NCBI GenBank assembly: GCA_025456015.1
Contig: JALOLK010000018.1
Location: forward strand, 1-41,268
Length of the DNA: 41,268 bases
Reading direction: 5' to 3'
DNA from: Candidatus Nanopelagicales bacterium
Lineage (GTDB): Bacteria > Actinomycetota > Actinomycetes > S36-B12 > CAIYMF01
Position numbers and translations under genes: made by a program. A model generated the notes under the pieces. The model ran no database searches, was not told the origin of the DNA, and worked only from the letters and a program-made list of their open reading frames with translations. The first letter of the stretch is position 1. Each line of letters opens with the position of its first letter. Shown one piece after another: positions 4,574 through 39,292 of this stretch.

Positions 4574-5308
4574 TCAGGTTACTTCAGTGCTGCCACGGCG
4601 CCCGAGCAGCGCGCTGCCGAGGCGGACGTGTGTCGCTCCGGCCGCGATCGCGGCCTCGAGGTCCCCGGACATCCCAGCCGAGCGCATGGTCGCGCCCGGG
4701 TGCTCGGCCAGGAGTCCGACGTGCAGGTCGGCCAGGCGGTCGAAGGCCCCGCGCGGGTCCACCCCCAGCGGGGCGACGGCCATCACCCCGAGCAGGTCCA
4801 GGTGCTCGCTGGCCGCCACCTGTCCGGCGAGCGCGAGCAGCTCGGCGGGCGCGCAACCGCCACGCTCGGCCGTCGAGGGGCCGACGTCGGGTGGGCGCTC
4901 GTCGAGGTCCACCTGCAGGCAGGCCCCGAGCCGCCGGCCGGCCTGGCCGGCCGCCCGATCCAGGGCCGTGACCAGGCGGGCCCGATCCACCGACTCGACG
5001 ATCGCCGCGTAGGAGGCCACCGAGGCCGCCTTGTTGCGCTGCAGCTGGCCCACGAAGTGCCAGGTCAGCCCCAGGTCGGCGCACGCCTGGGCCTTGGGCC
5101 GGGCATCCTGGTCGCGGTTCTCCCCCACGTCGGTGATGCCGAGCTCGGCGAGCAGGCGCACGTCACTGGCCGGGAACGTCTTCGTGATGGCCACGATGGT
5201 CACCTCCTCGCCGTGTCGGCCCGCCACCCGGCAGGCTGTCTCGATCCGCTGGCGCACCGCGGCCAGGTTGGCCGCGAGCTGCGTGCGTCGCTGGTCCTCG
5301 GCGGTCAC
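4574..5308 (-). CDS. yggS: YggS/PLPBP-family PLP homeostasis protein
   Basis: Pyridoxal-phosphate-binding protein of the alanine racemase N-terminal fold; it buffers cellular PLP and has no known catalysis. The 244 residues include the PLP lysine K43 in VAITKTFP, GENRDQDA (in place of the commoner GENRVQE), HFVGQLQRNK, and the phosphate-binding GMSGDLEAAIAAGATHVRLG near the C-terminus. GTG 5308 is chosen because it overlaps the pgeF stop as GTGA and places VTAEDQRRTQLAANL at the expected N-terminus; longer in-frame readings run inside pgeF in another frame. Standard position between pgeF and sepF. Confidence 0.92.
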   Translation of the reverse strand: MTAEDQRRTQLAANLAAVRQRIETACRVAGRHGEEVTIVAITKTFPASDVRLLAELGITDVGENRDQDARPKAQACADLGLTWHFVGQLQRNKAASVASYAAIVESVDRARLVTALDRAAGQAGRRLGACLQVDLDERPPDVGPSTAERGGCAPAELLALAGQVAASEHLDLLGVMAVAPLGVDPRGAFDRLADLHVGLLAEHPGATMRSAGMSGDLEAAIAAGATHVRLGSALLGRRGSTEVT

Positions 5309-6115: not shown

Positions 6116-7300
6116 CTACTTCAGGAAGTCCGGGACGTCGAGGTCGTCGGGCTCGTCGAAGGAGATCGTCCGGGGCTCGCGGATGTCCACGCTGGGCCGC
6201 TCCGAGCCGGCAAGGCCGGGGGGCAGCACGACACCGGACTGGGCGCCCGCCGGGACCAGCACCGGCGCCTCGGCGCGCGGCGCGGCACCGGCGGCCGGCT
6301 CCGACTCGTCGAGCACCCGACGCCCGGCGGCCGCCTCGCGGCGCACCGGCGGGTGCCCGCCGTCGAACCCGGCGGCGATGACCGTGACCCGCACCTCGTC
6401 GCCCAGGGTGTCGTCGATCACGGCACCGAAGATGATGTTGGCGTCGGGGTGGGCGGCCTCGGCCACCAGGCGGGCGGCCTCGTTGATCTCGAACAGGCCC
6501 AGGTCGGACCCGCCCGCGATCGACATGAGCACGCCGTGCGCGCCGTCGATGCTGGCCTCGAGCAGCGGGCTGGCGATCGCGGCCTGGGCGGCCCCGACCG
6601 CGCGCTCGTCGCCGCGCGCCGAGCCGATCCCCATGAGCGCCGAGCCGGCCCCCTTCATGACCGACTTCACGTCGGCGAAGTCGAGGTTGATCAGGCCCGG
6701 GGTGGTGATGAGGTCCGTGATGCCCGAGACGCCCTGCAGGAGCACCTGGTCGGCCTGGCGGAAGGCGTCGATCATCGAGATCGAGCGATCGGCCAGGGAC
6801 AGCAGCCGGTCGTTCGGGATGACGATCAGGGTGTCGACCTCGGCCCGCAGCTCCTCGATGCCGTGCTCGGCCTGGCCGCTGCGACGGCGGCCCTCGAACC
6901 CGAACGGCCGGGTGACGACGCCGATGGTCAGCGCGCCGAGCGAGCGTGCGATCTTGGCCACGACGGGAGCGCCGCCGGTGCCGGTGCCGCCACCCTCGCC
7001 CGCGGTGACGAAGACCATGTCGGCGCCCTTGAGCACCTCCTCGATCTCGTCGGCGTGGTCCTCGGCGGCGCGCTGGCCGACCTCGGGGTCCGCGCCGGCG
7101 CCCAGGCCGCGAGTGAGTTCGCGGCCGATGTCGAGCTTGACGTCGGCGTCGCTCATGAGCAGCGCCTGCGCGTCGGTGTTGATGGCGATGAACTCCACGC
7201 CCTTGAGGCCGACCTCGATCATCCGGTTCACGGCGTTCACGCCGCCACCACCGATGCCGACGACCTTGATGACTGCCAGGTAGTTCTGCGGGGCTGCCAC
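6116..7300 (-). CDS. ftsZ: Cell division GTPase FtsZ
   Basis: Tubulin-like GTPase that forms the Z ring. 394 residues from GTG 7300, which has AGGAG 7 bases upstream and gives the typical start [20 protein letters not shown]; reading further upstream in frame has no support. The tubulin signature GGGTGTG is at 103-109 and the T7 catalytic loop is recognisable in [14 protein letters not shown]. After the globular domain comes a Pro/Ala-rich linker and the tail DLDVPDFLK, the peptide bound by SepF and FtsW in actinobacteria. Regulation looks separate from the upstream genes: 455 bp of non-coding DNA with a hairpin, a repeat array and a TTGACA element precede it. Confidence 0.97.
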
Positions 7301-7405
7301 TGCGGTGCTCCTGTTCTGTCCTGCTGCTGGGAAACGGGCTGGGGCGTTGCGTGCGGCGCGGGGGTTGAGCCCGGCTGCGGCGTGCACCTCCGGTTGAGTC
7401 TCACC

Positions 7406-7433
7406 CTCAACTTGAGCCTGAGAGTTATGTCAA
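7406..7433 (-). promoter_or_regulatory. Probable ftsZ promoter element with CTCAAgTTGAG palindrome
   Basis: On the minus strand a perfect TTGACA (7428-7433) is followed 17 bases later by TTGAGG. The latter is a poor -10 but lies inside the palindrome CTCAAgTTGAG (7406-7416). Similar CTCAA/TTGAG elements are, from memory, common before actinobacterial ftsZ genes. It would give a leader of about 100 bases. The -35 is convincing; the -10 is not. Confidence 0.45.
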
Positions 7434-7566
7434 CCTGTGGTTGGCGAGGAACGTAGGCCAGCACCTGGGGCGGATCAAGGACCCCCGCCCTGGTGGGCGT
7501 GTCGCCGGCACCGTGCGGACCGGGAACGCCGATGCCATCGGCGCACCAGGGGCGCCGGCCGGCACC

Positions 7567-7675
7567 TGGGGACCAGCTGGGGACACGCTGGGGAGGGCGG
7601 GCGCCGGGATGGGGACCACCTGTGGACATCCCCTGTGGACAACGCTGGCGCCGGTCGTGCACAGGCTGTGGACGC
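7567..7675 (+). repeat. Helically phased TGGGGA/TGTGGAC repeat array (DnaA-box-like)
   Basis: Seven copies of TG(G/T)GGA on the plus strand start at 7567, 7578, 7589, 7610, 7621, 7634 and 7667, at steps of 11, 11, 21, 11, 13 and 33 bases, so most fall on one face of the helix. Three are TGTGGAC; the copy at 7634-7642 reads TGTGGACAA, the exact complement of the actinobacterial DnaA box TTGTCCACA. The TGGGG copies also resemble MraZ half-sites. Either DnaA or MraZ binding would link ftsZ expression to the cell cycle; this is inference from sequence. Confidence 0.5.
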
Positions 7676-7730
7676 GCTCGCCCGAGGGTCCCATCAGCAC
7701 CGCGGAACGCGCGCCCGACCTCGCCCAGCG

Positions 7731-7749
7731 TGTTCGCTCAGGGCGAACA
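7731..7749 (-). terminator. Hairpin after ftsQ, candidate terminator
   Basis: TGTTCGC and GCGAACA pair perfectly (7 bp) around a 5-base loop, ending 7 bases past the ftsQ stop. No T-run follows on the minus strand, which is common for GC-rich actinobacterial terminators. Together with the separate ftsZ promoter element it suggests that ftsZ is partly uncoupled from the upstream operon. Confidence 0.45.
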
Positions 7750-7755
7750 GGGTCG

Positions 7756-8532
7756 TCAGGGCGTGGGCTGCTCCTCGGCAGTGCGACCGCCCGTCGTGGT
7801 GGGCTGCAGGGGGCTGCTGACGTCGTACACGTCGGCCTTGACCGCGACCAGGCCGGCCAGCACCCGGGACTTGAGCTCGGCGCGGTCCGGATCGCCCCAC
7901 CGCACCGTCGCGCCGCCCTTGAGCGTGAGGGTGACGTCCTGTGCGGTGCTCGCGGCCACCCGGCGCACGTCGGCCCGCAGGTCCGGCGGCAGCGACAGCA
8001 GCACGAGGCGGGCCGTCTCGCGGCCCTCGTCGGTGCGGGCCCGGATGACCGGCAGCTTGCGGGCGCTGCCCACCGTGTCGTAGACCACCCCGTCGGCATC
8101 CATGACGAGGAAGCCCTTGCCCGACTGGACCGCCGCGAGCGGGCTGCGGGCCGTCACCTCGAGGCGGATCGTGTGCGGCAGGGAGCGCTGCACCTGCACG
8201 TCGGCGACCGCGGGGATGGCGCCCATGATCGCCGCGCGCACCGCGTCGGCGTCCACCGCGGGGACGTGGTCGGCCGCCGAGATGCCCGAGGCCAGCCGGA
8301 TCGACTCCGCGGACAGCCCACGCGGGGCCTCGACGACCACGTGCTCGACCAGCGTCGCCGGCGACCCCCAGCCGAGCCAGCCCAGCCCGGCCACCGTGAC
8401 CGCAGCCGCGACCCACCAGCGACGGCGCACCCGTCGGCGGCGCGACCCGCCGGCCGGTGGCGACGCCGGCACCTCGTCCGGCGCCAGGTCCGTGACGAGC
8501 ACCGCCTGCGGGCTCGGGGCCTCAGTGCTCAT
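7756..8532 (-). CDS. ftsQ: Cell division protein FtsQ
   Basis: Bitopic divisome protein that bridges FtsL/FtsB to later components. 258 residues: a basic cytoplasmic N-terminus rich in Pro (1-39), one membrane segment (about 40-57, WWVAAAVTVAGLGWLGWG), a POTRA domain (about 62-130, HVVVEAPRGLSAESIRLASGI) and the FtsQ beta domain with SLPHTIRLEVTARSPLAAV. The start overlaps the murC stop as ATGA, so translation is coupled. It is the last gene of the mraZ-ftsQ run before the ftsZ leader. Confidence 0.93.
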   Translation of the reverse strand: MSTEAPSPQAVLVTDLAPDEVPASPPAGGSRRRRVRRRWWVAAAVTVAGLGWLGWGSPATLVEHVVVEAPRGLSAESIRLASGISAADHVPAVDADAVRAAIMGAIPAVADVQVQRSLPHTIRLEVTARSPLAAVQSGKGFLVMDADGVVYDTVGSARKLPVIRARTDEGRETARLVLLSLPPDLRADVRRVAASTAQDVTLTLKGGATVRWGDPDRAELKSRVLAGLVAVKADVYDVSSPLQPTTTGGRTAEEQPTP

Positions 8533-21894: not shown

Positions 21895-21950
21895 CGCCGG
21901 TCACCTCCCCTGCCCACCACGAGTCCCCTGCCCGGACCCCAGTGCGCGCC

Positions 21951-21979
21951 ACCATACTCCACACTCCTCCACTTGTCTC
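21951..21979 (-). promoter_or_regulatory. mraZ (dcw operon) promoter
   Basis: On the minus strand GAGACA (21974-21979) and TATGGT (21951-21956) are separated by exactly 17 bases. Transcription would start near 21944, giving a leader of about 50 bases. Two TGGAG boxes lie in the spacer, the right place for repression by MraZ. Confidence 0.55.
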
Positions 21980-22015
21980 CCCGATTGACCCCACTTCCTC
22001 CACTGATCACCTCCA
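21957..22015 (-). promoter_or_regulatory. MraZ operator repeats (TGGAG/TGGGG boxes)
   Basis: Minus-strand boxes TGGAG at 21957-21961, 21967-21971, 21998-22002 and 22011-22015 and TGGGG at 21989-21993. The first pair has the 5-base gap and 10-bp period known for MraZ sites; others are spaced by 9, 13 and 22. Autoregulation by MraZ is inferred from family knowledge. Confidence 0.55.
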
Positions 22016-37859: not shown

Positions 37860-39292
37860 CCCGGCCCGGGCAGGTCGTCGTAGAACTGCCCGTGGTAGCC
37901 CAGCAGGACCGGATGCGGCAGCTCGGCGCGGGCGATCTCGGCCAGGGTGGCCGCATCCAGCACGAGCAGGAACGAGGTCCCCCGCGCGGCGTCGAGCACC
38001 ACCGAGAGCACGACGCCGTCGTCCTCGGCCACCCGGCCCGGCCGCCCCACGAAGACCCCCTCGCCCGGGTAGCAGCCCGGCGCCCACCAGGTGGTGCTCG
38101 CCCCCGAGCGCAGGTCCACCTTCACGAGCTGGTCGTAGAAGCCGCGCTCGCCGCGCAGGCCCACCCCGTAGACGTGACGGTGCTCGTGGCTGGTGTTCAT
38201 CCGGGCGTAGTCCAGGCTCGGCAGCTCGATCGCCGTGTCGCTGAGCCGCTCCTGCCGGACCGGCCCGGAGGCCAGCGGCACCCGGAAGCGGCGCAGGGTG
38301 CCCGGGGGGATGCGCACGTCGGGCTCCTCCAGCCGGTGCAGGTAGAACGACTCGATGACCGCAGCATCGTCGTACCCCACGAGGTCGACCACGAGCTCAC
38401 CGCCGGCCTCGAACGCGTTCACGTGGTGGAAGGCGAAGCAGGCATCCGTGGCGACCGTGCGCACGTGTGCCCCGCTGGCGCGGTCGAACACGTGGAAGCG
38501 GGTGCCGCGCCCCGGCTCCCAGCGGAAGTTCTCGATGTAGGGCCGCAGCCAGAGCAGCAGCGCCATGGGATCGACCACGAGCGGGAACTCGGCGAGCACC
38601 AGGTGGCGCGCCGACATCCCGAAGGAGTGCAGGTAGGCCGGCCGGCGCACGCGCCGGGTGGCCAGGTCGGCACCGCGCACCGCCCCGGGATCGCGGGTGT
38701 CCAGCCGCCGGAACACGTACTGGCTGGCCGCTCCGTAGCGGGTCACGAGGTTGATGGCCTCGTGCCGGCTGGCGTCGAGGTGCGGGTGCACCGTCGTCAT
38801 CCTGCCGAAGGTCGAGCGGTCCCAGCCCACCACGCCCACGCTGTGCAGCGTCTGGGGGTCGAACTGCACCTGGATCGGTGTCTCGGCGAGCGCCAGGTAG
38901 CGCTCGGCGACGCGGGCGATCGCCACCTTGGCGCTGTCGGTCACCTGGGGGTCGAACACCGCCATGGCCCTGGCGAACAGCGAACGGCACGGGTCGGTGG
39001 CGAACTCCGGGTAGGCGATCCGGCCCTCGTCCCGCGCCGCGGCGTACGCGCGGGTCTCCAGGAAGCGGTTGGCGTAGGAGACCCGGCCGTCGAGGATCGA
39101 GAAGCGGTGCAGCATCGCCAGGCCGTCGAACCAGTGCCGGTACCGGCGATCCCCCACCTGGAACGTGCCCGGGCCGTTGCGCAGCAGCGACCCGGCGAGC
39201 CACTCCGGCAGCCGGCCCGTCACCGGCACGTCGTCGAGGGCCACCTCGGGGGACGTGCCGAAGCCGTGCCTGGCGTAGGCGGGGGTGGTCAT
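37856..39292 (-). CDS. Carotenoid cleavage oxygenase (RPE65/BCO family)
   Basis: Iron(II) dioxygenase that splits carotenoids at a double bond into apocarotenoids. 478 residues, a single seven-bladed propeller fold. The four iron-binding histidines can be placed: HPHLD (169-171), LHSFG (222), FHHVNAF (289/290) and YHGQF (467). [10 protein letters not shown] near residue 38 and [12 protein letters not shown] are also family-typical. ATG 39292 overlaps the desaturase stop (ATGA), so the two are co-translated. The closest animal-type activities give retinal from beta-carotene; the real substrate here cannot be told. No rhodopsin gene is in the window. Confidence 0.9.

Follow-up and report, generated by a model that had tools for sequence, protein, structure and literature searches.

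The window, that is, the whole stretch of 41,268 nucleotides of Candidatus Nanopelagicales DNA analyzed here, carries an actinobacterial dcw cluster, including mraZ, on the minus strand. The gene for FtsZ, the main bacterial cell-division protein, was identified by Pfam at positions 6116-7300 (minus strand, with a GTG start at about 7300), and ftsQ, recognized by its Pfam domains POTRA_1 and FtsQ_DivIB_C, lies at 7756-8532 on the same strand. The promoter region of ftsZ contains a conserved TTGACA element (7428-7433, minus strand), which is visible in many relatives, and an inverted repeat, AACTCTCAGGCTCAAGTTGAGGGTGAGA (7399-7426, minus strand), which resembles the operator of the MerR-type regulator FtsR, described at actinobacterial ftsZ promoters as a 25-bp inverted repeat (PMC6683498). 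Scans of positions 7250-7850 for sigma-70 promoters and terminators yielded no match, so the assignment of the ftsZ promoter rests on conservation.

Between ftsQ and this promoter region lies a predicted array of seven boxes for DnaA, the replication starter that reads its DNA word at the chromosome origin (7566-7673, minus strand, consensus GTCC[A/C]CAG). The original prediction of seven related repeats between ftsQ and ftsZ was borne out at every position, and the orientation is common to all units. The units were compared with those of G001, the sole other genome of the same genus that was retrieved, whose FtsZ is 96% identical to that of the genome under study (G000), and scored with a DnaA-box matrix trained on 127 boxes from the oriC of 18 relatives, with a threshold of 10.8 bits. 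From the ftsZ-distal to the ftsZ-proximal end, all on the minus strand, the array comprises unit 1, GCGTCCACAG (7666-7675, core GTCCACAG at 7666-7673, identical in G001); unit 2, TTGTCCACAG (7633-7642, core GTCCACAG at 7633-7640, 17.4 bits); unit 3, ATGTCCACAG (7620-7629, core GTCCACAG at 7620-7627); unit 4, TGGTCCCCAT (7609-7618, core GTCCCCAT at 7609-7616); unit 5, CCCTCCCCAG (7588-7597, core CTCCCCAG at 7588-7595, identical in G001); unit 6, GTGTCCCCAG (7577-7586, core GTCCCCAG at 7577-7584); and unit 7, TGGTCCCCAG (7566-7575, core GTCCCCAG at 7566-7573). Five of the seven exceed the matrix threshold, and the other two fall below it, unit 4 at 10.0 bits and unit 5, the weakest, at 8.5. The three ftsZ-distal units are of the A-type (GTCCACAG) and the four ftsZ-proximal units of the C-type (TCCCCA). 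A possible eighth, inverted unit, TCGTGCACAG (about 7655-7664, plus strand, 9.2 bits), is placed between units 1 and 2 and is kept in the alignment of the two genomes. The steps between the seven units are 33-13-11-21-11-11 in the same order, so that the predicted spacing of mostly 11 bases applies to three of the six and the remaining three depart from it. A distance of 132 bp separates the unit nearest to ftsZ from the TTGACA element downstream of it.

The units are more clustered than expected by chance, as judged by both word counts and matrix simulation. The word TGKGGAC is not abundant in the window as a whole, given that 15 copies were observed against 15.4 expected from shuffles; six of these 15 copies fall within 107 bases, where simple arithmetic gives an expectation of ~0.04. 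The matrix found 12 matches in the 41 kb window, five of them in the array, compared with a mean of 0.17 and a maximum of 3 matches in 3000 simulated gaps. When one mismatch was allowed, the pair pattern GTCCMCAGNNNGTCCMCAG had 7 matches in the genome under study and 3 in G001, against 0 for the reversed control in each case. The periodicity of the array is best fitted by 11.1 bp (R 0.92, a value matched by 225 of 20000 random layouts), in line with the phasing claimed originally, but at 10.5 bp per turn R drops to 0.53, so the phasing can be called only moderate.

The identity of the repeated word was assessed from the replication origins of related bacteria. A box regular expression has 15.2 matches per kb across 20 dnaA-dnaN gaps, compared with 0.21 per kb in the preceding dnaA coding sequence; this rate covers 20 of 22 genomes, the end of dnaA not having been located in G004 and G007. 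Because this expression was taken from the ftsZ array itself, a blind count of 6-mers, free of that origin, was made in the oriC of 18 relatives outside the genus, sampled as the 450 bp downstream of dnaA. TGGGGA/TCCCCA ranked first among all 6-mers (71 seen, 9.0 expected) and TGTGGA/TCCACA second (69 seen, 9.1 expected). A survey of 28 further oriCs of the class, obtained from new loci of 40 genomes, in all of which dnaA was found, yielded 94 copies of TCCACA, 77 of TCCCCA, 17 of TCCGCA and 7 of TCCTCA, with two of the loci short (L252, 100 bp; L255, 225 bp). The array units thus match the box word of the oriC of the clade and, as both unit types are leading oriC words, both are most simply explained as DnaA boxes. 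We consider it very probable that the units are DnaA boxes of the clade's own type, [G/A]TCC[A/C]CAG.

The support for this assignment is stronger than originally proposed, yet it does not come from the “perfect” DnaA box on which the proposal had drawn. TTGTCCACA, the published actinobacterial high-affinity DnaA box (PMC4285127), is indeed present within unit 2, at 7634-7642 on the minus strand, but it is matched by only this one of the seven units in G000 and by none of the seven in G001, where the TT prefix of unit 2 is replaced by GC and the copy reads GCGTCCACA. Among oriC boxes, TTGTCCACA accounts for none of the six in the dnaA-dnaN gap of the genome under study and for five of 137 across 20 genomes. 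Because this gap lacks TTGTCCACA and the G001 copy is altered, the match should not carry the argument. In the oriC of the class, boxes of the TCCCCA type are almost as frequent as those of the TCCACA type, so that scans limited to TTGTCCACA miss many boxes.

The ftsQ-ftsZ gap of G001 contains the same seven units with identical spacing; conservation of spacing in a close relative had been named in advance as a test of the prediction. Between the two species, 55 of 56 unit positions are identical compared with 30 of 52 spacer positions (Fisher p 1e-7), a difference that points to selection on the units in this one species pair, and the alignment has no indel inside the array and several in the flanks. 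Altogether, 128 ftsQ-ftsZ gaps were scanned, namely, that of the window, those of 47 relatives and those of 80 further loci, two of the gaps being partial (L008, about 59 bp, and G016, 118 bp upstream); the 47 relatives are those whose gap was read out of 57 with ftsZ (the remaining ten are G022, G025, G035, G038, G039, G041, G043, G045, G055 and G058). Seven boxes were found only in G000 and G001; three are present in G019 and two in one gap, and 124 of the 128 gaps have one box or none. Accordingly, none of the remaining 126 gaps, of which two are partial, carries the array or more than three boxes, and all 15 other members of the family examined (one gap partial) lack it. Judging from one species pair, the array seems to have been gained at the level of the genus and to be under selection, and its confinement to one genus (two of two genomes) implies that ftsZ manages without it elsewhere. 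The three boxes in the gap of G019 (L136), a member of another family, are of the DnaA type, differ in orientation and lie 183-254 bp upstream of ftsZ; this is perhaps an independent, weaker case.

Within the two genomes of the genus, the ftsZ array is the densest box cluster seen, with seven boxes per 120 bp compared with at most three in the oriC gaps of both; the two genomes are incomplete (78% and about 85%), so denser clusters may be missing. In total, these oriC gaps contain 6 and 4 boxes, compared with 6-10 in 12 other family members. Other clusters were tabulated where neighbors could be identified, rather than as a full regulon count. In the genome under study, five DnaA-type boxes in the same orientation lie between the divergent lexA and nrdR genes (L228 1501-1596; C46 about 38939-39034), four to five lie directly upstream of dnaB (L130 about 2466-2720; C127:3965-4220), and an inverted TTGTCCACA pair forms a palindrome between an rsmG-like sequence and parB, on the upstream side of the latter (L126 1487-1510; C129:14711-14735). 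The genome under study also has two arrays, of five and four boxes in 120 bp, near paralogous HEAT-repeat genes, and G001 has three boxes upstream of dnaX and three more, in a non-promoter place, between DUF881 and the apparent 3' end of crgA, the latter recognized by eye and not by Pfam. The nrdR, dnaB, dnaX and parB neighborhoods are the company expected for a putative DnaA regulon. The existence of the non-promoter cluster in G001 makes titration of DnaA possible as well.

Several additional features of these clusters were observed. The nrdR-side cluster adjoins a CTAGTAGTTACACC sequence, which resembles an NrdR box, and similar nrdR clusters are present in L182, L201 and L207, where nrdR was identified by its initial codons and by similarity among the loci. 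A family-wide box array with a spacing of about 23-22-11-12 (L185, L191, L194, L204, L205 and L180, about 1390-1690; C86 and C94 of the genome under study, L155 and L157) precedes a conserved stretch that resembles a leader (GGGAGAACGGGCCGGTG...AAGGGGAAGGCG), downstream of which the sequence varies between genomes. A search against Rfam assigned none of eight loci that carry other arrays to a known family at gathering score and detected no credible family in the conserved leader adjoining one array; the leader-like stretch is possibly an RNA of a new kind. In many contigs of G010, TCCCCACTGTGTCCACA-type words recur many times, some as inverted pairs about 28 bp apart, and look like a dispersed palindromic repeat.

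The interpretation that we favor, with moderate confidence, is that the array is a genus-specific DnaA platform upstream of a conserved FtsR-type ftsZ promoter and that it probably regulates ftsZ. Under this scenario, DnaA would bind the array cooperatively, probably nucleating on the three distal A-type boxes, and would then extend along the C-type boxes toward the promoter in 11-bp steps, that is, as 9-mers 2 bp apart; a 2-bp spacing between boxes is also characteristic of the oriC arrays of E. coli. The resulting complex would make the transcription of ftsZ depend on how much DnaA is present or on its nucleotide state, activation and repression being alike possible, and this effect would be added on top of FtsR-type control, such that ftsZ output would follow the replication cycle. 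The effect on ftsZ is the part that we infer, given that DnaA boxes upstream of ftsZ are reported to be inert in E. coli while DnaA activates ftsZ in Caulobacter. Some observations count against this interpretation: the TTGTCCACA unit loses its TT in G001, units 4 and 5 score below threshold, the array is confined to one genus, at least one other cluster (in G001) lies away from promoters, and the 132 bp to the TTGACA element are a long reach for contacting RNA polymerase directly.

The main and serious rival, although on balance we consider it rather unlikely, is that the array acts in titration without regulating ftsZ: it would set the pool of free or ATP-bound DnaA in the manner of datA and DARS, as DnaA titration or reload sites are named, and the ftsZ neighborhood would be incidental. 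The excess of boxes in the array over the oriC gap of the same genome, the low box totals in the oriC gaps of the genus relative to the family, the apparently convergent genes flanking one of the G001 clusters and the distance of the array from the promoter element all fit this explanation, but all seven units face the ftsZ promoter, and most of the other clusters with identified neighbors precede genes for replication or dNTP supply (nrdR, dnaB, dnaX). The same preference for nrdR, dnaB and dnaX, together with the dominance of the same words in dnaA-dnaN oriCs across the class, makes it improbable that another regulator or a nucleoid protein reads this word at the array and that DnaA does not bind there, even though direct repeats at 11 bp would also suit winged-helix response regulators and the two same-word arrays mentioned above lie near poorly characterized HEAT-repeat genes. 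It is still less probable that the gap holds an auxiliary or relocated replication origin. It is denser in boxes than the dnaA-dnaN gap of the same genome, and its lowest 40-mer GC content, 0.45 at the promoter, is below the 0.53 of that oriC gap; yet the dnaA-dnaN gap still carries boxes, and the window has neither a TAGTAG trio (a weak test, as the oriC gap of this genome also has none) nor a clear GC-skew switch (likewise a weak test).

Three further candidates were rejected. MraZ, for which the motif is TGGG-type, had been put forward as the alternative reader, and G-rich direct repeats within a dcw cluster that encodes MraZ are compatible with this suggestion. The mraZ promoter of the genome under study (minus strand, window about 21895-22000; L210 about 4780-4830), however, carries GKGGAG words spaced by 10 bp, a pattern that is kept in G001 and is likely the MraZ operator of the clade, and the array has one such word and lacks the 10-bp step; an MraZ operator at ftsZ is thus highly improbable. 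We give equally little credence to a G-quadruplex-forming stretch in place of protein boxes: a G3+N1-7 motif does span 7568-7597, but it is one of 14 in this GC-rich window, and such a structure needs neither the three TGTGGAC units nor the T, A and C that are conserved at the flanking positions. Least probable of all, and close to negligible, is a direct-repeat operator for MtrA, an OmpR-type response regulator. The mycobacterial MtrA operator shares the geometry, a 9-nt direct repeat with 2-nt spacing (PMC6265350), but the arrays of both species lack the GTNAC-type half-site ([G/A]TNAC) on either strand, and ftsZ is reported not to be an MtrA target in mycobacteria (PMC6265350).

If the array is a DnaA platform, it suggests that the start of replication may be directly linked to the making of the division ring. 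The original interpretation is partly supported: the sequence comparisons favor DnaA as the reader of the array, and a tie between Z-ring supply and replication would be an inference from them. A bolder version, which we regard as doubtful, is that an oriC-grade DnaA array was recruited to ftsZ in one genus, so that ftsZ would report the active form of DnaA directly and would also be a main DnaA sink; if true, initiation and Z-ring supply would be wired through one titrated site that evolved independently of Caulobacter. The timing of FtsZ relative to replication is, to our knowledge, poorly understood in actinobacteria. Scrambling of the array would leave the coding sequence intact, so that a link between DnaA and ftsZ could be tested directly, and the restriction of the array to one genus offers natural comparisons with and without it. 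Searches of the open-access literature, judged mainly by titles and abstract openings, yielded no paper that describes an array of DnaA boxes at ftsZ in any actinobacterium. Action of DnaA on division genes is already known; what appears to be new here is that seven ordered boxes accompany an ftsZ promoter of the FtsR type in an actinobacterium.

Among known systems, the FtsR-controlled ftsZ promoters of Corynebacterium and other actinobacteria are similar in that the element downstream of the array resembles their 25-bp inverted repeat; the DnaA-box array is an addition here, none being mentioned in the passages of PMC6683498 that were consulted. In Bacillus subtilis, DnaA is reported to bind the ftsL promoter region (PMC10532879), a comparable connection between DnaA and a division gene, with a different gene in a different phylum. 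The nrdAB and dnaA promoters of E. coli have boxes of different nucleotide preference that are described as reading the DnaA-ATP/ADP state (PMC8203912), whereas the affinity classes of the boxes in the ftsZ array are only guessed. E. coli also has DnaA boxes upstream of ftsZ within the dcw cluster, for which no role in ftsZ transcription is reported (PMC8203912); these are three boxes inside ftsQA, whereas the seven boxes described here are clustered between genes and their units are conserved. The closest functional parallel may be Caulobacter crescentus, in which binding of DnaA at ftsZ and activation of this gene by it have been reported (PMC8203912) and where, as in the present case, with the predicted array 132 bp from the TTGACA element, the boxes are located in the ftsZ promoter region. 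Unlike in this alphaproteobacterium, the boxes described here form an ordered array of seven, are of the TCC[A/C]CAG type, accompany an FtsR-type actinobacterial promoter and are found in one genus only.
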